Below the pieces are notes generated by a model. The model was not told where the DNA came from and ran no database searches. It worked only from the letters and a program-made list of their open reading frames with translations. A DNA stretch of 25,227 nt from a virus: IMG/VR virus record IMGVR_UViG_3300021440_000111, positions 1 through 25,227 of that record, one strand, 5' to 3'. Shown in pieces: positions 120-22,178 of the stretch; positions within the stretch are counted from its first letter, which is position 1, and each line of letters begins with the position of its first letter. Both the position numbers and the translations under genes were made by a program.

Positions 120-767
120 ATGCCTGACGAATTACTGACACGCGAGGAGCTGATAGAGGCCTGGGGTTTCCGGGCCGCTGGGGAGTCGTGGGACGACATT
201 GGGAGTCTGCTCGGTGTGAGTCCGACCAGGCTGCGTAAACTCGTGACGAACTGTGACCCGCCACAGGGCGAGGCGTCCCCACGTCTAGATACGCCGGGAT
301 ATAGACGATGGGCTAGAGAGCGAGCACAGGAGCGCCGAGCACGTAATCCGCGGCGTCCCGCGTCTGTTGCGGACAGCGCAGAGGATGACCCGGCCGACTC
401 GGATCCGGTCAACAAGTTACCCGACGACTTGCGGCCGCCGCGCACGTTAAGCCGAGACCAACAGAAGCAATGGTACTCTAAGATCGTAGACGACTGTGAT
501 TCAGAGTGCAGGCTGTTAGCCGCGGCCGGTGCACATGCGGAGATCCGAAAAGTCCGCGCCCTGGCGATTAACGCGAACAAAGAGCTCGCGCGCTTGAACC
601 GTGACGACGGCGGGGACTCGATTCGAGTTAACAAGGAGGAGCTGGCGAAACGAGCACAATCCGTGCGTGATAAGCTGACGGCGTACCTGGGAACGAAGCG
701 CCCTTTGCTTTGCTCGCATTGCGGTCATGAGTTATCGGTGAGCTGGGGCAAGGCAGACTCGCCGTGA
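120..767 (+). CDS. Probable terminase small subunit (HTH protein)
   Basis: A 215-residue protein placed two genes upstream of the large terminase. Residues about 5-45 (ELIEAWGFRAAGESWDDIG, then LLGVSPTRLRKLV) look like a helix-turn-helix. A basic, arginine-rich linker (about 60-80) and an acidic stretch follow, then a helical region (about 115-190). Near the C-terminus there is a single CSHCGH knuckle, which would need a partner to bind zinc. Small terminases bind phage DNA at the packaging start and regulate the large subunit; HTH plus helical oligomerisation region fits that pattern. GGAG at 106-109 is a ribosome binding site about 10 bases before the ATG. The stop overlaps the GTG of the helicase by four bases. 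The call rests on position and HTH; it could be a different DNA-binding regulator. Confidence 0.55.
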   Translation: MPDELLTREELIEAWGFRAAGESWDDIGSLLGVSPTRLRKLVTNCDPPQGEASPRLDTPGYRRWARERAQERRARNPRRPASVADSAEDDPADSDPVNKLPDDLRPPRTLSRDQQKQWYSKIVDDCDSECRLLAAAGAHAEIRKVRALAINANKELARLNRDDGGDSIRVNKEELAKRAQSVRDKLTAYLGTKRPLLCSHCGHELSVSWGKADSP

Positions 768-2321: not shown

Positions 2322-2387
2322 ATGATTGAGCTAGATTCTTTTACAATAGAAGTTTCCAAGCTACGAAATAGCCCGTGCGAAACGTGA
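2322..2387 (+). CDS. Possible 21-residue leader ORF before TerL
   Basis: A short ATG frame (MIELDSFTIEV..., stop TGA at 2385-2387) fills the gap between the helicase stop and the large terminase, and overlaps the terminase GTG start by 13 bases. A GGGAG at 2305-2309 lies about 12 bases upstream. It could couple translation into the terminase, whose own GTG has no Shine-Dalgarno sequence that I can see. There is no homology evidence, and the frame may be chance. Confidence 0.2.
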   Translation: MIELDSFTIEVSKLRNSPCET

Positions 2388-3826
2388 CACTACCGATCCC
2401 GCCATGGCAAGCGCTAGCCCACACACTCGACGGTGCACCTGATCTCGATGATCTCGACTGGGCGCTACTCGGTGACGATCCAGAGTTCGCGTTGCGTTGC
2501 GACCAGCACCCGCCAAGACCGAACTGGCGATACCTAGGATTCCTCGCTGGTCGTGGATACGGTAAAAGCTTCGCGATTGCGGCGCACATTACCCGTGAGA
2601 TCGTTAACGGGCAAGCAAGGTCAATTGCGCTAATGGCCCAAGACGAACTGCGCACGATAACATTGCAGGTTAATCCGCTGCTTGAGGCAGCACCACTGTG
2701 GTGCAGGGCCGAGATGTATAAGGACCAGATTCATTGGGCAAACGGCGCAGTGGCGAGCATATACACGCCAGAGTCACCGGGTAAGATCCGTGGTTTCAAT
2801 GGGGACTTTGCTTGGTGTTCGGAGTTCGTTGCGTGGCCAGCGATAACGCGGAAAGAAGCGTTTTCAAATCTGCTCACAGCGACTCGCGTGGGTAACGCCC
2901 GTATGGTTTGGGATACGACATCCAAAGGGAGAAATGAGCTAATCAAATACCTGAAACAGTTAAACGAGCGCAACCCGGACGCATACCCGATAATCCGCGG
3001 CACGATATTCGACAACCCATTCCTGAAGCGCGAATATCTACAGGAGCAGCTCGCTCTTTACTCGGGTAGACGCGCACAGGAAGAGCTTGAAGGCAAAGAC
3101 TTCGACGAATCGGAGGGATCCGACTGGCAGCAGTCCTGGATTGACCTGTCACGGGTGCACACATGCCACGGGTTAGAGCTTTCGGTTATTGGCCTGGACC
3201 CAGGCATATCGATCAAGGAGGGAGTTGATGGCACCGGATTTGTGGTCGTCGGACGTGCCCCGCGAGACGCTGGATTCTACGTCGTGCGCGACCGCTCGGG
3301 CGTGCTGTCGTCTGAGCAGTGGGCGGGGCTTGCCCTCGAGGAATACCAGGCAGGGCACGGCATCGGACTGACTGGTATAATCGTCGAGACAAACCGTGGA
3401 GGGGACACACTAACTGCGGTAATACGAGCCACGGCATACCATCGTGGGATAGAGGTCCGTGTGTTAACTAAGGGTGCCGAGTTCCCGCGTAGAACTGATG
3501 GCGTGCTGTACGTCAAGGAGATGCACAGCCGCGGAGACAAAGCCAGCCGCGGAGTGGGACCCGCGGCGCTGTATTCGCAGGGCCGCGTGCACCACGTTGG
3601 CGTGTTTCCTGAGCTCGAAAACGAACAGTGCACGTACGTTCCTGAGCCCGGCATGCCGAGCCCGAACCGATTCGACGCGTGCAATATGGCTTTGTCCGAG
3701 CTCGCTGGTCTGAACACGGACAAATCCGTCCCTGGCGTGCGTGAGGCTAGGGCAAAACAGGAGCAGCAGTTTCACCAGCAGCTTCGGGCGCGATTGCAGC
3801 AGATGTCGAAACGGTCGGTGATTTAA
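2375..3826 (+). CDS. terL: Terminase large subunit
   Basis: The packaging motor: an ATPase that pumps DNA into the prohead plus a nuclease that cuts the concatemer. Walker A is GRGYGKS at residues 59-65. The Walker B position reads FAWCSEF with Ser149-Glu150, where many terminases have Asp-Glu. The C-terminal RNase H-like nuclease shows its acidic residues: Asp275 (GLDPG), Glu338 (VETNRGGDT) and Asp434 (RFDACNMALSEL). The length of 483 residues is normal. The start is GTG; an in-frame TAG at 2369-2371 rules out an upstream start. The last 80 bases overlap the 3' end of the portal gene on the other strand, so the two genes converge. The partner should be the protein at 120-767, but a helicase gene separates them. 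Confidence 0.93.
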   Translation: MRNVTLPIPPWQALAHTLDGAPDLDDLDWALLGDDPEFALRCDQHPPRPNWRYLGFLAGRGYGKSFAIAAHITREIVNGQARSIALMAQDELRTITLQVNPLLEAAPLWCRAEMYKDQIHWANGAVASIYTPESPGKIRGFNGDFAWCSEFVAWPAITRKEAFSNLLTATRVGNARMVWDTTSKGRNELIKYLKQLNERNPDAYPIIRGTIFDNPFLKREYLQEQLALYSGRRAQEELEGKDFDESEGSDWQQSWIDLSRVHTCHGLELSVIGLDPGISIKEGVDGTGFVVVGRAPRDAGFYVVRDRSGVLSSEQWAGLALEEYQAGHGIGLTGIIVETNRGGDTLTAVIRATAYHRGIEVRVLTKGAEFPRRTDGVLYVKEMHSRGDKASRGVGPAALYSQGRVHHVGVFPELENEQCTYVPEPGMPSPNRFDACNMALSELAGLNTDKSVPGVREARAKQEQQFHQQLRARLQQMSKRSVI

Positions 3827-5384
3827 CCCACCCGTCTAGTTGCGCGATCGTCATGTCATCGCGTTCGTCGCCAAATGGCTCTAGACCCTGGCTTGCACGA
3901 GCCTCACGAGCTCGCACGACCTTCGCTACATCTGTTGGTGCGAGCGCAAGCGGTACAGACCTAGACGCAACAGCAGCCAGTTTTGGAACCGGCTCGACTC
4001 CGTACAGCTCGGCTAGCACATCAATCGTTACCTGAGTTATCTCCATGCCGCTGCTCCGATAGCGATCTAGCAGGCTGAATAGTGAGTCCGTAGCCTTCTG
4101 ACGTTGATCGATTTTCTCGTTTGCGTCCTCACTAGGGATTTCAAAAACATATCTAGGGGCGCGCGAGCTGTCCGCATAGTTAACGGCAGCCCATGGCATA
4201 AACACGCCTTCGTACAGGCCTATTTCAAGCGCCGAAACATCACCCTTTACTTTTGCCGCAGCTACGCCAAACAACGTGGCGACATCAACACCAGGCGCAC
4301 TGGTTGACGATCCAAGCATGCCATCGTTGCCGAGAAGAATACGCGCTGCTGCCCGTTCCCGATTGTTAATCAGTTCCGAGAATACCTGCCATGCAGAGCT
4401 TGTGTTGCTGATGAAATTTGCCTTTGCCCCGGCTGGTATTATTCCTGCCCCAGCGTCACCACTGACAATGTCGGCAAGCATATCGAGGAATGACTGGGCC
4501 TCAGGACTTAACGAGACGCCATCGTCAGACAGGAGAGCCATTCCAGCCGGAAGCTCACCAACAATTTTGGCCATGCCATGCGAGTTAATCGCACCGCCCC
4601 ATGCGCGTATTGCCTCAAGGTGAGCTGCAAACACAAGTGCTAGCGCCAGAATCGCAGCCTCTTGTAGCCACGGTTGCAAGTCGTATTTTTTGAACACAGT
4701 CCAATACCCATCGCCATGGGTTATCGGAACCTCGCCGTCGGCAGTGCGTGCAAAAAACGAGCCTTTTGCCTCGATCCATCGGACTGATTCGATCGGCCAC
4801 TCCTCGAGCCGGAAGTCCTCTCGCGAACCGTCTTCGCTTCGCGTGCGTCTGTTGTACCCGAATGAAACCCCGTGCATCGCCATCGTAACACCGAGAGACG
4901 CAAGCGCATACCGTGGAACAGAAACCCCGATAGCCGCGGCCTTAGCGATTGGCTCTCCGCGAGTTCCGCCGGTGGACTGGAGTCTGGTCGTCAGCTCAGT
5001 CAATGGTGCCGCTCGGTTACTGCGCGCGACGAAGATCGGATCGTCGCCCTGCATGGCCTTTGCGAGCTGAGCAGCAGGTCCAAAGTTTCCCTGTGATTGA
5101 GCGTCGCGGGCGGAGCGGATGGATTCGAGTGTCCACCCGAGTTGCGGGGTGCGCTTACGGACCTGCGTCAGCTCTGGCGCCCGCGGGTAGTCACTGGCCG
5201 TAGTTACCTTTCCACGGATCTTTGCGAGCACGGCTAGGGATGCCGAGCCGCGTGAAACGACGTTAGCCAGCGTGCGGTGGTTAATACCCAGTCGCCTGGC
5301 CGTCTCGCGTTGTCCGTTAGCGTACAACGAGGCCTGCAGGCTTTTTAGGATCTCGGGGTCTATCGGTTGAGTTGGTTGGGTCAT
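3747..5384 (-). CDS. Portal protein (DUF935/Mu gp29-like) with N-terminal HTH
   Basis: Encodes 545 residues on the opposite strand to every other gene here. From about residue 85 it looks like a Mu gp29/DUF935-type portal, the dodecameric head vertex through which DNA passes: GNFGPAAQLAKAMQGDDPIF, a GDGYWTVFKKYDLQPW segment, and a late helical stretch IDQRQKATDSLFSLLDRY. Unusually, residues about 24-46 (GQRETARRLGINHRTLANVV) form a clear helix-turn-helix, joined by a short linker. The C-terminal tail is rich in Ala, Ser and Pro. I chose the ATG at 5384 (MTQPTQPID); a TTG three codons upstream is possible. There is no GGAGG-type site; instead three TGGGTCAT half-sites cover the start. The gene needs its own promoter, and its 3' end overlaps the large terminase by 80 bases antisense. 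The portal call is firm as a family resemblance; the HTH role is inference. Confidence 0.85.
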   Translation of the reverse strand: MTQPTQPIDPEILKSLQASLYANGQRETARRLGINHRTLANVVSRGSASLAVLAKIRGKVTTASDYPRAPELTQVRKRTPQLGWTLESIRSARDAQSQGNFGPAAQLAKAMQGDDPIFVARSNRAAPLTELTTRLQSTGGTRGEPIAKAAAIGVSVPRYALASLGVTMAMHGVSFGYNRRTRSEDGSREDFRLEEWPIESVRWIEAKGSFFARTADGEVPITHGDGYWTVFKKYDLQPWLQEAAILALALVFAAHLEAIRAWGGAINSHGMAKIVGELPAGMALLSDDGVSLSPEAQSFLDMLADIVSGDAGAGIIPAGAKANFISNTSSAWQVFSELINNRERAAARILLGNDGMLGSSTSAPGVDVATLFGVAAAKVKGDVSALEIGLYEGVFMPWAAVNYADSSRAPRYVFEIPSEDANEKIDQRQKATDSLFSLLDRYRSSGMEITQVTIDVLAELYGVEPVPKLAAVASRSVPLALAPTDVAKVVRAREARASQGLEPFGDERDDMTIAQLDGWVKSPTVSTSAAIAPEAAGETAAPVLP

Positions 5385-5404
5385 GACCCACAATTGTGGG
5401 TCAT
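5377..5404. promoter_or_regulatory. Overlapping perfect palindromes over the portal start
   Basis: Three copies of TGGGTCAT in alternating orientation lie at 5377-5384 (+), 5383-5390 (inverted) and 5397-5404 (+). They form a perfect 14-bp palindrome (5377-5390) and an overlapping perfect 22-bp palindrome (5383-5404, centre AATT). The portal ATG on the minus strand (5384-5382) lies in the overlap. The layout suggests an operator, perhaps for the HTH of the portal itself. In RNA, the larger palindrome would form a 9-bp stem with an AATT (AAUU) loop and could hide the portal start. I saw no other full 8-bp half-site in the window, only ATGACCC 7-mers inside genes. Confidence 0.7.
5381..5404 (-). 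CDS. Possible 7-codon leader peptide before the portal
   Basis: On the minus strand an ATG at 5404 opens a seven-codon frame, MTHNCGS, whose TGA (5383-5381) overlaps the portal ATG as ATGA. This is the same coupling arrangement used between many genes in the window. No ribosome binding site is evident upstream. The frame may be a by-product of the palindrome, since the half-site itself contains ATGA. Confidence 0.2.
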   Translation of the reverse strand: MTHNCGS

Positions 5405-5471
5405 CTGGCTATTGTTGGCTAATTTAAAACCAGTTTTGCCAAAATATTAGCAGTCTGCCAGCCTTGCGCTG
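5405..5471. promoter_or_regulatory. AT-rich divergent intergenic region, probable promoters
   Basis: This stretch separates the divergent portal and protease genes and is clearly richer in A and T than its surroundings. It holds short inverted repeats: GCTAAT at 5418-5423 paired with ATTAGC at about 5446-5451, and AAAAC-CA-GTTTT between them. Promoters in both directions are expected because no transcript from one gene can serve the other. The best + strand match I see is weak (TTTAAA, a spacer of 16, TATTAG); on the minus strand a TAATAT is present without a good -35. These are guesses from sequence, and a phage-specific promoter is equally possible. Confidence 0.4.
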
Positions 5472-6626
5472 ATGGGATTTGCGCGTCTGGCTGCAGTTTG
5501 CGTGTGCGAGGAGGAATCCCCGGCAACCGAGCTGCGCCTGTTTCGCGCCGGGATCAACGAGACCAGCAAAGGGTCGTTCATTTTCGACGCGGCTTCGGCC
5601 GCAAGCGTGTTTGCCGAGCACGCAAAAGTCGGAACCGACATCATGTTCGATCTCGAACATCTATCGTTAGATCCGCATCACCCAAACTACAACCCGGACG
5701 CCATGGGTTGGTCTGGCCTAGAGCTTCGCTCGGGCGAACTATGGGTTACTGGGATCAAGTGGACTACCGAAGGCCAGTTTAGACTTCGAGATAAGCGCCA
5801 GCGATATCTGAGTCCGGCGATACTATTCGACGAAAGTACCCGCCGGGTTACCTCTCTGGTGAACGTTGGGCTTGTGGCTCAACCGGCAACTTATGGATCT
5901 CAGCAACTAATCGCGGCAAGTCGCCGCGCACAGCTATCCACGGGAAAACCAATGGACAAAACGTTAATTCAATCGGCGCTTGATGCTCTGATCGCTGGCG
6001 ATGCAGAGAAGTGCGCCGAGGTTTTGAAGCAAATCATCACAAGCGAAGTCGTCGGCGAAGAGGCTGTAGATCCTATGGATGGCATGCCAGCTGGTGCGCC
6101 GCCCGCAGATGGGGCAGACGCAGGGGCTGGGCTCAGTATCGACAAGAGTGGCGCCACGTTGCTGCTATCGTCACTGCTGAGGGTAACCGATGCAGCAGAC
6201 CCGTCCGAGGCTCTGCAAATCGTAGAGACATGGGGCAAAGCACAGGAAGAAGTTCGCGCTCAACGAGCGGGCTTGGAGTTGTCGAGCCGACGCATGCTGA
6301 TCGCCGATCTGGTCAAGCTCGGTGTGGAGACTCCGGGAACAGCGTGGGAGGGCGACGACAAGTCATCTAGGCTCCCCGTTGCTCGCTTGATGGCTGAGCC
6401 TATAGACGCACTCCGAGCGCGCGTTGCGATCCTAGCCAAGTCTGTCACGCGTAGCGCCCCTGCTCTGTTGCGCCCGGCATCTGATGATGCTCCGGCCGTC
6501 ACACTCAGCGAACGCGAGCAATCACTCATCAAGGCCTCAGGAATTTCCGAGATGGAATTCGTGGAGCGAAAGAACGCAATGCTTAGTAAGGCAAGCGTTA
6601 ACCACAAGCTGCAGGTGTCAAAATGA
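5472..6626 (+). CDS. Mu gpI-like prohead protease with scaffold domain
   Basis: A 384-residue protein resembling the phage Mu I protein, the capsid maturation protease whose C-terminal part acts as internal scaffold. The N-terminus (MGFARLAAVCVC) is like that of other gpI proteins. The protease domain spans about residues 18-155: TELRLFRAGINET, DIMFDLEHLSLDP, WTTEGQFRLRDKRQRYLSPAI and SLVNVGLVAQPA. The rest (about 160-384) is Ala-rich, helical and acidic, as in scaffolds. No clear ribosome binding site precedes the ATG; an AGGAGG at about 5509-5514 is inside the gene and has no start codon after it. It is the first + strand gene after the divergent region, so it probably has a promoter there. 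The stop overlaps the next ATG as ATGA. Confidence 0.85.
   Translation: MGFARLAAVCVCEEESPATELRLFRAGINETSKGSFIFDAASAASVFAEHAKVGTDIMFDLEHLSLDPHHPNYNPDAMGWSGLELRSGELWVTGIKWTTEGQFRLRDKRQRYLSPAILFDESTRRVTSLVNVGLVAQPATYGSQQLIAASRRAQLSTGKPMDKTLIQSALDALIAGDAEKCAEVLKQIITSEVVGEEAVDPMDGMPAGAPPADGADAGAGLSIDKSGATLLLSSLLRVTDAADPSEALQIVETWGKAQEEVRAQRAGLELSSRRMLIADLVKLGVETPGTAWEGDDKSSRLPVARLMAEPIDALRARVAILAKSVTRSAPALLRPASDDAPAVTLSEREQSLIKASGISEMEFVERKNAMLSKASVNHKLQVSK
5952..6626 (+). CDS. Possible nested scaffold protein (Mu gpZ analogue)
   Basis: An in-frame ATG at codon 161 of the protease gene (MDKTLIQSALDALIAG...) sits just after the protease domain, with GGGA at 5942-5945 and a spacer of six bases. It would give a 224-residue, helical scaffold lacking the protease. 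Phage Mu makes its scaffold Z in this way, from an internal start in gene I. The sequence shows the start and the site; use of the start is inference. Confidence 0.45.
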   Translation: MDKTLIQSALDALIAGDAEKCAEVLKQIITSEVVGEEAVDPMDGMPAGAPPADGADAGAGLSIDKSGATLLLSSLLRVTDAADPSEALQIVETWGKAQEEVRAQRAGLELSSRRMLIADLVKLGVETPGTAWEGDDKSSRLPVARLMAEPIDALRARVAILAKSVTRSAPALLRPASDDAPAVTLSEREQSLIKASGISEMEFVERKNAMLSKASVNHKLQVSK

Positions 6627-7021
6627 GACCAAACTTCAGAAGCTATTACCCAACTAATGTGACGCTCGCGATCGAGGCTAACACTCTGATCGAGTCGGGC
6701 GACATCGTGATCCAAAACGCGAACAAGCGGGCAATTCCAGGGGCCGCAGCCGCTGGTGCGGCTCTGGTCGTGGCAGGGATCGCAAAGCACACGGTCGACA
6801 ATCGCACTGGATCTGCTCTCGGTGGCGCAGCTGGCGCGGCGGATGTGGATTGCGAGGTTGGGTTATTTGACCTGGTAACCGCGGACAATCCGGCGCTCAA
6901 GGCTCAGTTGTATGTCCTTTCGGCAACGTCGGTGACAACCACTGCTAGCACCAATACTCCATGCGGGATCGCTCGCAACGTCGTAAAAAATGGCGTCGTA
7001 ACGACCGATGTTGGACGTTAA
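6623..7021 (+). CDS. Head decoration/capsid cement-like protein
   Basis: A 132-residue protein between the protease and the major capsid gene, the usual place for a capsid decoration or stabilising protein. It is rich in Ala, Gly, Val and Thr and looks all-beta, with short turns (ANTLIESGDIVI, LVVAGIAKHTVDNRTGS, VGLFDLVTADNPALKAQLYVL). The pattern resembles DUF2190-type cement proteins of Mu-like phages, which bind the outside of the shell. The ATG overlaps the protease stop as ATGA. The TAA stop is part of a GTTAAC word. Family assignment is by general resemblance and position only. Confidence 0.6.
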   Translation: MRPNFRSYYPTNVTLAIEANTLIESGDIVIQNANKRAIPGAAAAGAALVVAGIAKHTVDNRTGSALGGAAGAADVDCEVGLFDLVTADNPALKAQLYVLSATSVTTTASTNTPCGIARNVVKNGVVTTDVGR

Positions 7022-7044
7022 CTGGTAACAAGACGCTTTACCAG
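7022..7044 (+). other. Hairpin between decoration and capsid genes
   Basis: CTGGTAA at 7022-7028 and TTACCAG at 7038-7044 form a perfect 7-bp inverted repeat with a 9-base loop, just after the decoration gene stop. There is no T run, so it is not a classical terminator. It may mark an RNA processing or stability point ahead of the highly expressed capsid gene. The 74-base gap (7022-7095) otherwise holds a GTTAAC at 7065-7070. Confidence 0.35.
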
Positions 7045-7095
7045 GAATCCAATGGCTCCTGAATGTTAACCAGGTAGCGCCAAACCAAGGACCGT

Positions 7096-8103
7096 ATGGC
7101 TAAAATTAGATTTGATGCACTTCCCAAGACTTTGCAGGACCGTCTAACCGAGTTCCGCGATGACTTCATTTCAGTTTTCTCAGCTGGCATCCCATATGTG
7201 TGGGCCGAAGATGTCGCAAACGTAATTGAGACGGATGCACCTAAAGTTAGGTTGACACTCAGCCTTGATGCTGCGGGTTATCAAGAGTTTAAGGACGAGT
7301 ACAACTATCGCGAGCTAGACGGTCGAGAGCTGTCTCTAGTTAAAAAGCTCTGGAACGATGGCGTAAAAGCCAAGGCCGACCAACTCAAACAGTCGGACTA
7401 TCTGGGGTTCGCACAGCAGCCGCGAGTGCTCGCAGAGTATGCGCTGCGGTTGCCGAATAAGTGGTGCGCCGCCGTGCTGGAAGCGAACCCGCTGCTTGAG
7501 ATGTATCGTAAACCTGATACAGGCGCCGCGTCGACGATCAATCTGTTCCACGCGTCACATCCGGTTAACATCTTCAAGTCGTCGCTTGGAACGTTCGGGA
7601 ATACCGGCACAGCAAACCTAGTTGGCGTTGGCGGGTTCACGCTAGCAAACGTTACGTTGTGGGCCAAGCACTTTGCTTCTATCCTATCCCCGAGTGGTGA
7701 CTCGATGGGGCTTCAGTTAACGCATGTCGGTGTTCCTCGAAACCGAATGGTCGAGGCTAACGCGTTCTTTGCCAATGACCTGGTTGTTCAGGCTATTCGC
7801 AATGCAGCGAATACCGACAACGTTGGCGGCGTTATGGTACGAAACAACTACAACGGTAGCGTCACGCCGGTTGTTATGGATGAGTTGACCAACGTGAACG
7901 ACGTTTATCCAATGTCGTTAACCAAGGCCGCTTCCGGGTTGCTTCCACTTGGTGTCATCATCGGCGCAACGCCGGAGACTAACATCTTGGACGAAAACTC
8001 GGCCATGTATGAAACCACTCGCCACGTAGCTGTGAACGCAGTTGTTGAGGGTTATGCCGGCGCCATGTTCCCGCACCCAATCGCCAAGGTAACACTCTCC
8101 TAA
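7096..8103 (+). CDS. Major capsid protein, Mu gpT-like
   Basis: A 335-residue protein resembling the Mu gpT major head subunit family, the main building block of the icosahedral shell. Typical segments are the N-terminal helix region (LPKTLQDRLTEFRDDFISVFSAG), the FHASHPVN motif, then GGFTLANVTLWAKHFASIL and a C-terminal region ending NAVVEGYAGAMFPHPIAKVTL. The length is close to that of gpT. The ATG has a strong site, AAGGA at 7087-7091, four bases upstream, which fits high expression. A short gap separates it from the decoration gene. Downstream, 8104-8170 holds only an imperfect GC-rich hairpin (CCGGGAG...CTCCGG) without a T tract. Confidence 0.85.
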   Translation: MAKIRFDALPKTLQDRLTEFRDDFISVFSAGIPYVWAEDVANVIETDAPKVRLTLSLDAAGYQEFKDEYNYRELDGRELSLVKKLWNDGVKAKADQLKQSDYLGFAQQPRVLAEYALRLPNKWCAAVLEANPLLEMYRKPDTGAASTINLFHASHPVNIFKSSLGTFGNTGTANLVGVGGFTLANVTLWAKHFASILSPSGDSMGLQLTHVGVPRNRMVEANAFFANDLVVQAIRNAANTDNVGGVMVRNNYNGSVTPVVMDELTNVNDVYPMSLTKAASGLLPLGVIIGATPETNILDENSAMYETTRHVAVNAVVEGYAGAMFPHPIAKVTLS

Positions 8104-20393: not shown

Positions 20394-22178
20394 ATGTCAG
20401 TGTTAACATTTGCCGGCAGAAGCATCAGGACCCTGGACGCGTCAACGCTGGTTGGCGTTGTTGCTGACGGCGTAACAGTTGGCACAAGCGTCACCGATGC
20501 TTCCGGATCGGGTGACGCGTACCAGTTGGTTCCAGGCGGCGGGGCTAACCAGGCTAGGTTTTCGGCGAACGGTTTTTCGACTGGCGTCCCGTCAATTCAG
20601 ATGGATGGGACAGGTGGGCTCTATCTAACCACGTCATTCGCTTCGACCGTCGGTAGCGGCGTTGACCATTCAATCACATTCGGAGCAAATGTTAACCTGA
20701 CATCTGTCACAGGGTTGACGTCGCACTTTGTGGCGGTCAGCTCTTCGACGTCGCAAAACCCATTCTGGTTTTTTGGAGCAGGCTCAGCCAACGCATGGCG
20801 AATCGGTCGGCGAAGCGACGCTGGCGTGACTACACGCTCGGCAACGGCTGGCGTAACTGCGACCGGGCAAACGCGGCTGATAGCCACGTTCGACGGCGCA
20901 ACGGGGCTTGGCGAGGTCTGGCTGAACGGAGTTAGCCTTGGAGGCGCGATAAACATCGCCGATGCCACATCGCTCACACTCAACCTATTGTGTTGGGGTT
21001 GTCAGTATAGACCGACGGCATCGCCAGCAATTGCCGGCGGGATGATTGGTTACCTTCATCGCGCGTTTGCGGTTAACGGGAAGCTGAACTCTGGAGAAAT
21101 CGCCACGGCTGATGCGTGGCTATCGGAGTTAGTACAGGCACCGGCAGTCATCACCATGGGTGCTCCCCGGTGGGCAATTCTTGGGTCAAGCACGGCTGAC
21201 GGAGCTGGCGGTCTAGTCAACCCAACAGTTAACTCGTGGCCTGGTGTACTGACAACTCGCTATGGTGCAGCAGCTTACCGAGCTACGTCTAGCGCTGGCA
21301 TCGAGACGTGGGAAACGCTCCCTGCTGGTGACGCACGCCCTGCATGGGCGCCTCCAACTATCAGCACGCACGACATTAACACGTGCCTTGCAGCAAATCC
21401 GAAGGTCCTGCTGTACCAAATCCAGTCTGATTTCGGTCAGATTGCTACCTACCAAGCTGGTGGGTATGCGGGTGACGTCTGGTCGTATCCAGACGATCAT
21501 CTGATCCCAATGATGACCCGGATCAAGGGATTGTGCGACGCCGCAAAGTGCGAGCTTCGCATGGTGCCGCTCCCTCAAGTTAGCCCGACTGTCACATCAG
21601 ACGATCACCTGATCGCAATGATTCACTGGGGGCGCAAGCTTCGTGCAGCGTTTGGGCACATCTTCGTCGACACGCTACCTATTCTGTCACTTGACCGAGC
21701 AAATGCTAACACGGCGGTGTTTATCACCGCTAATGCACACCCGGATATTCCCGGGCAATTGCTGCTGGCTAACGTATTCGAGCAGTATGCAAAGACCGCT
21801 CAGATCAACGTTCCGAAATTCTTCGCTACGAACGTCGAGGGGTTTCCGATCCTAGACGGTGCGTCGGTAATCCTGACGCCTGGAACCGTCGCATACAACC
21901 CAGGGACCGCGCTCAACGGTGCGTCGGTAACCCTGACGCCTGGAACCGTCGCATACAACCCAGGGACCGCGCTCAACGGTGCGTCGGTAACCCTGACGCC
22001 TGGAACCGTCGCAGGGCTTGGTTCCGTGATCAATGGCGTGTCGGTAACGCTGACGCCGGGGTCTGTTGTTTATGCGCCTCCGGTGTCGTTCGAGGGCGAG
22101 TTTTCTGCTACGCTGGGAAAGCGGATGGCAGTTTCGGCAATGCTCCAACGTCGGCCGCGCGCGGTCATAGGATCCTAA
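20394..22178 (+). CDS. Tail protein: LamG-like + SGNH-hydrolase-like + repeat tail
   Basis: A 594-residue modular protein in the fibre cluster. Residues about 1-240 have the layout of a concanavalin/LamG-like sugar-binding sandwich (LIATFDGATGLGEVWLNGVSL). Residues about 258-465 look like an SGNH/GDSL hydrolase: block I ILGSSTADG with likely nucleophile Ser266, and block V HPDIPG with His449. The usual Asn of block III is not evident (QSD) and the usual Asp three before the His is Ala. Residues about 488-560 are a 20-residue repeat (NGASVTLTPGTVAYNPGTAL) in about three copies plus a degenerate one. Such proteins de-acetylate or cut surface sugars; activity here is doubtful. It starts at ATG, eight bases after the previous gene. 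Confidence 0.7.
   Translation: MSVLTFAGRSIRTLDASTLVGVVADGVTVGTSVTDASGSGDAYQLVPGGGANQARFSANGFSTGVPSIQMDGTGGLYLTTSFASTVGSGVDHSITFGANVNLTSVTGLTSHFVAVSSSTSQNPFWFFGAGSANAWRIGRRSDAGVTTRSATAGVTATGQTRLIATFDGATGLGEVWLNGVSLGGAINIADATSLTLNLLCWGCQYRPTASPAIAGGMIGYLHRAFAVNGKLNSGEIATADAWLSELVQAPAVITMGAPRWAILGSSTADGAGGLVNPTVNSWPGVLTTRYGAAAYRATSSAGIETWETLPAGDARPAWAPPTISTHDINTCLAANPKVLLYQIQSDFGQIATYQAGGYAGDVWSYPDDHLIPMMTRIKGLCDAAKCELRMVPLPQVSPTVTSDDHLIAMIHWGRKLRAAFGHIFVDTLPILSLDRANANTAVFITANAHPDIPGQLLLANVFEQYAKTAQINVPKFFATNVEGFPILDGASVILTPGTVAYNPGTALNGASVTLTPGTVAYNPGTALNGASVTLTPGTVAGLGSVINGVSVTLTPGSVVYAPPVSFEGEFSATLGKRMAVSAMLQRRPRAVIGS
21856..22013 (+). repeat. 60-bp tandem repeat inside the SGNH-like gene
   Basis: Two full and one partial copy of a 60-bp unit begin at 21856, 21916 and 21976. 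Copies two and three are identical over 38 bases; copy one differs at one base (T at 21871 where the others have C at 21931 and 21991). A fourth, diverged copy lies at about 22033-22074. It keeps the frame and adds 20 residues per unit. Near-identity indicates recent duplication, and copy number could vary. Confidence 0.9.

Follow-up and report, generated by a model that had tools for sequence, protein, structure and literature searches.

The closest described counterparts of the portal studied here are gp29 of phage Mu and the portal of phage JBD30 (PF06074, DUF935), which have in common with it both the fold (residues 58–440) and the neighbouring genes for the large terminase subunit (TerL) and a Mu-like protease. 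Compared with Mu and JBD30, however, the portal gene described below is reversed in place, and its product carries a 57-residue helix-turn-helix (HTH) extension of which the solved chains of these two portals have no counterpart. When a collection of 50,697 phage records was searched for members of its clade none was found, the nearest being Myxococcus phage Mx4 (OK085710; 26% identity, E = 2e-5), whose host also belongs to the Myxococcota; Mx4 and its mutant were the only phage records with sequence similarity to our portal. The Mx4 portal, unlike ours, is co-directional with its terminase and has no HTH at its N-terminus. A survey of the open-access literature, judged by title and abstract, brought up no paper on a reversed portal or on one with an HTH, which leaves room for a description elsewhere. 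Each head of a tailed phage needs one portal ring and no more, and the way in which the supply of portal and of capsid protein is balanced is not settled.

A reversed portal gene of the Mu type

The window that we analysed is the whole 25,227-bp record of an uncultured virus (Table 1). The succession TerL, portal, protease, decoration protein and capsid protein is that of a Mu-type head operon, with the portal gene reversed, so that the one-strand layout of such an operon is broken. The preliminary description had placed the portal alone on the minus strand, and this held: the genes for TerL, the protease and the decoration, capsid and tail proteins all read in the plus direction, and the other long minus-strand open reading frames (ORFs) overlap assigned plus-strand genes and were read as shadow ORFs. 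The 3′ ends of TerL and portal overlap head-on by 80 bp (3747–3826). Assignment of the decoration and capsid genes was based on matches to phrog_1731 (E = 5e-12) and, weakly, phrog_371 (E = 0.059), and on synteny with relatives; the presumed small terminase subunit has homologues in the four HTH-portal relatives described below. A scan of the region between portal and protease, presumed to be a bidirectional promoter region, found no sigma-70 consensus promoter. Elsewhere in the window, a DNA helicase gene (764–2317; phrog_16, E = 1e-95) lies between the presumed small and the large terminase genes, and the C-terminus of a tail-region protein (21856–22060) is encoded by 60-bp tandem repeats that specify NGASVTLTPGTVAYNPGTAL units.

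Table 1. Positions of the features of the window discussed in the text.
Feature	Position	Strand	Remarks
Presumed terminase small subunit with own HTH	120–767	+	weak phrog_57 match, E = 0.026
Terminase large subunit (TerL)	2375–3826	+	
Portal gene, Mu-type with N-terminal HTH extension	3747–5384	−	545 aa, ATG at 5384; reversed relative to all neighbours
Portal core, residues 84–516	3837–5135	−	conserved across all clade members
N-terminal extension, residues 1–64	5193–5384	−	restricted to five members of the clade; alignment to the Mu portal starts at model residue 58–63
Predicted HTH domain, residues 10–56	5217–5357	−	Pfam, PDB profile, model helices
14-bp perfect palindrome TGGGTCATGACCCA	5377–5390		centred on portal ATG; half-site common with 22-bp palindrome
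22-bp perfect palindrome ATGACCCACAATTGTGGGTCAT	5383–5404		covers first two bases of portal start codon; candidate operator
Portal/protease divergent intergenic region	5385–5471		87 bp; AT-rich stretch 5405–5450 (33% GC)
Mu-like head maturation protease	5472–6626	+	opens divergent head/tail operon
Decoration-like protein	6623–7021	+	
Presumed major capsid protein	7096–8103	+	

The window portal is a member of the Mu-type portal family. Its residues 200–436 matched Portal_Mu (PF06074) with an E value of 1.4e-16 and 61.2 bits, against a curated cut-off of 23.9. An AlphaFold model built with 27 clade relatives reached a pLDDT of 82 (37 without an alignment), and the structures that it matched were headed by 9knu, 8rka and 9khx (Z = 22–23), which identifies the fold as that of a Mu-type portal. 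Residues 58–440 of the model aligned to residues 5–390 of the phage Mu portal (9knu; Z = 23.0), and residues 64–419 aligned to the JBD30 portal (8rka; Z = 22.6). Because the Mu alignment starts at model residue 58, the N-terminal 57 residues lie outside the Mu portal; the Foldseek match lists for the full model were taken up by the portal core.

Orientation of the portal gene in relatives

Scans with the single portal and terminase proteins of the window retrieved no relatives, and alignments of distant homologues were required. Searches with these alignments uncovered a clade of portals 35–44% identical to that of the window, found on contigs from many samples and in prophages of three bacterial genome assemblies (G035, G039 and G092), which had been chosen from the same phylum as a Polyangiaceae (Myxococcota) genome; the identifiable hosts of the clade are Myxococcota. 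Orientation was scored using iterated profiles for TerL, protease, capsid and the next gene. The portal was opposite to the protease/capsid operon in 23 of 30 distinct clade portals and co-directional in the remaining 7. In 19 of the 30 members the portal alone was reversed (or TerL was not seen), as in the window, while in four (L224, L225, L231 and L270) portal and TerL were both on the strand opposite to the protease. Outside the clade, co-directionality was the rule (121 of the 122 distinct portals next to which a TerL or protease gene was recognised), in agreement with the preliminary view of Mu-type portals. The portal-core tree required a minimum of three changes of orientation, a number that fits a single inversion at the root of the clade followed by two returns to the canonical order. 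These comparisons show an in-place inversion of the portal gene between TerL and protease that has been kept in most lineages of these Myxococcota-associated phages.

The sole exception outside the clade, L091 (G357), lies on a 10.75-Mb Myxococcota contig in which TerL and protease are on the plus strand and the portal is on the minus strand. Its portal belongs to another branch, with no detectable BLASTP similarity to that of the window (E = 0.15), and no HTH extension was seen. Since this portal is unrelated to the clade, in-place inversion has arisen independently, at least twice. The gap between portal (6285–8087, minus strand) and protease in this locus contains the repeats ATGACGCGCGC, two direct and one inverted. 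That the arrangement in the window is an assembly artefact or a misread strand is hardly credible: the window is a single record of an uncultured virus in which two 3′ ends overlap, but the same arrangement is repeated in 19 distinct lineages, including the genome assemblies G039 and G092, an unrelated portal was inverted independently on a contig of 10.75 Mb, and no inverted repeat longer than 8 nt joins the two borders of the portal gene. The lack of such repeats also led us to reject site-specific inversion. In the four members with TerL reversed as well, the order is kept, the portal preceding TerL in the direction of transcription, so that the two genes appear to have been flipped one by one and not as a block.

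A few Portal_Mu frames had other unusual structures. The portal of a Deinococcus gobiensis plasmid (L003, 4935–6716) has a C-terminal match to RNA 2′,3′-cyclic phosphodiesterase (TIGR02258, E = 4e-7, below the cut-off), and open frames of approximately 830–900 aa in L066 (1012–3738) and L068 (451–2943) are possible fusions with the following gene.

The N-terminal extension and its origin

The preliminary description had located an HTH at residues 24–46. When the N-terminus of the window portal was searched against Pfam as a single sequence, only HTH families were matched (E = 0.015–0.14), all below their curated cut-offs, the best scoring 15.5 bits against a cut-off of 27; none of five scrambled N-termini matched any Pfam family. 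Four related N-termini matched mostly HTH families, one of them also DUF5791 and an antidote-like family. Searched against the PDB, the five fused N-termini taken together as a profile brought up chiefly headpieces of the LacI family and lambda Cro (E = 0.14–1.4), together with a few unrelated chains, and the model placed helices at residues 10–32, 36–45 and 48–54 (pLDDT of about 78). In size, predicted helices and weak profile matches the extension resembles small phage HTH regulators and LacI/Cro domains. Unlike these regulators, it forms one polypeptide with a structural protein of the virion, and no match to a solved one fell below E = 0.1. The HTH is itself part of the portal, and a presumed small terminase subunit is encoded separately, so the extension does not qualify as a small terminase subunit.

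The fused HTH was found only in the window, L224, L225, L231 and L270, which form one branch of the portal-core tree (98/99 support), so that the fusion, like the inversion, recurs in homologues. No HTH was apparent by eye in about 70 Portal_Mu N-termini, as expected from the earlier suggestion that Mu-type portals normally have no such domain. Within the HTH region, codon position 2 was the least and position 3 the most divergent in four of five pairs, a pattern expected of a translated region under selection at the protein level. The window HTH has diverged considerably, with 21% identity to that of L231 over 61 codons, and when the window was left out, a profile built on the remaining four fused N-termini failed to retrieve its HTH (E = 8.1); its homology to the others consequently rests on the position of the fusion point, the tree and the predicted structure. 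Such divergence, the sub-threshold Pfam matches and the lack of an operator common to the fused members would suit a fusion fossil that is tolerated by the portal and has no DNA-binding role. We consider this unlikely, given that none of the five members of this deep branch has lost the HTH, that it is constrained at the amino-acid level, and that its helices are still predicted.

Other clade members start about 37 residues before a tryptophan of the core, typically with MGAPSKRAKKIR.ASEFD. An internal GTG at codon 52 of the window portal lies 32 residues before this tryptophan, close to where the HTH-less relatives start, and could yield an HTH-less portal alongside the full-length protein, as could processing; the GTG is not preceded by a Shine-Dalgarno-like sequence, and we regard two products as very improbable. 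Leaderless starts did not mark the fused members, as several HTH-less members also lack a Shine-Dalgarno sequence.

A candidate for the source of the extension was found in L227, where an ORF of 67 aa encoding an HTH (6929–7132) lies on the portal strand and ends 18 bp short of the ATG of the portal. When the fused N-termini were used as a profile, this ORF was found at E = 0.0013, at the top of 5322 ORFs after the five fused portals themselves, and hhalign gave E = 7e-5. L227 is placed beside the fused branch with moderate support (89/87), and its free HTH gene likely represents the state before fusion. In the simplest history, a small HTH gene preceding the inverted portal lost its stop codon and became joined to the portal. 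A fused HTH is missing from 18 of the 23 inverted members, so the inversion cannot be put down to the HTH; as read from these sequences, it preceded the HTH and is independent of it.

Palindromes at the portal start and a possible role of the HTH

Two perfect palindromes overlap at the start of the window portal (Table 1), creating three TGGGTCA half-sites with the palindrome centres 10 bp, or one helical turn, apart. The 22-bp palindrome is the longest perfect one of the record, and local-region shuffles equalled its score in 0.5% of cases. As 3 of 200 shuffled windows contained a palindrome of at least 22 bp somewhere, its length alone is modest evidence; it is notable for its position on the start codon of an HTH-bearing gene. 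The corresponding divergent region of each of the other four fused members was searched and lacks this palindrome, and no palindrome is conserved among the fused members, so we rejected it as a general operator for the HTH. Two members without a fused HTH (L228 and L245) have other symmetric repeats at the portal/protease junction. A role as terminator was also rejected, as no T-run follows the palindrome on either strand. A common promoter motif, GCAA...TTT...CCA, could be aligned across related members that lack the HTH and, in part, in the window, and is explained equally well by phylogenetic relatedness.

We propose, with a probability of roughly 40%, that the portal regulates its own synthesis. 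The HTH would stem from a small protein that autoregulated the promoter region from which portal and protease diverge, and unassembled portal subunits would bind the candidate operator at the portal start (5377–5404) and thereby repress portal synthesis. Assembly of the ring and its entry into the procapsid would then remove the HTHs from the pool and lift repression, so that portal output would track demand independently of the capsid operon. The inversion, the fusion, the free HTH neighbour and the operator-like site are seen in the sequences, whereas DNA binding, repression and assembly sensing are inferred. In favour of the proposal are the conserved inversion (23/30), the fused HTH branch and its codon constraint, the free HTH gene of L227, the start-codon palindrome of the window, the weak resemblance to LacI and Cro, and a sigma-70-like gene at the junction of L229. 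The DNA binding, regulation and timing of portal synthesis apart from the capsid genes suggested in the preliminary description would likewise be favoured by the palindromes of the window and disfavoured by their absence from the other four fused relatives. Against autoregulation stand the absence of the palindrome from the other four fused members, the junction repeats of the HTH-less L228 and L245, the 3 of 200 shuffles, the sub-cut-off HTH matches, the profile miss of the window HTH and the moderate support for the position of L227. A dual-function portal, at once ring subunit and repressor sensing its own unassembled pool, which came about by fusion of an adjacent HTH gene after inversion had brought the portal to its own promoter, is advanced more tentatively. 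If true, this would tie gene expression to virion assembly in a new way, through a structural protein whose regulatory action reflects whether it has been built into a ring. Across the clade, the portal gene was split from the capsid operon in most lineages, regained the usual order in others and was joined to an HTH in one branch, so that co-directional, inverted and inverted-plus-HTH states can be compared in nature, with a concrete candidate operator.

The HTHs could instead act in packaging, binding a pac- or cos-like site of the phage DNA, or acting with the small terminase, to join the genome end to the procapsid. Portal and terminase act together, TerL directly follows the portal on the same strand in the four other fused members, and some presumed small-terminase ORFs were among the next weak matches of the HTH profile. 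However, the fused members retain a presumed small terminase with an HTH of its own, the HTH of the sister L227 is a free gene and not a portal domain, and the window palindrome lies on the start codon of the portal itself; such a docking role is therefore doubtful.

The location of the palindromes between portal and protease genes, in a divergent arrangement with 87 bp of intergenic sequence, together with the regulatory genes at this junction in L227 and L229, might also indicate that the HTH acts on the protease/capsid/tail promoter and not on that of the portal, so that expression of the structural operon would depend on how much portal is available. This is rather improbable, considering that the palindromes extend over the start codon of the portal, with the protease ATG about 68 bp away. 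The gene in L229 (6417–6938, minus strand) encodes a sigma-70 region 2 protein (E = 1.6e-10) and is located between portal and protease, so that a phage sigma factor is encoded where the two genes diverge. In L226 and L269 (about 6699–7115 in the latter), an ORF with weak HNH_3 and HTH matches, possibly the remnant of a homing endonuclease, ends just before the portal start. Taken with the free HTH gene of L227, these genes suggest that the portal/protease junction attracts regulatory and mobile genes. At the same junction, L238 carries a short cysteine-rich ORF upstream of the portal.
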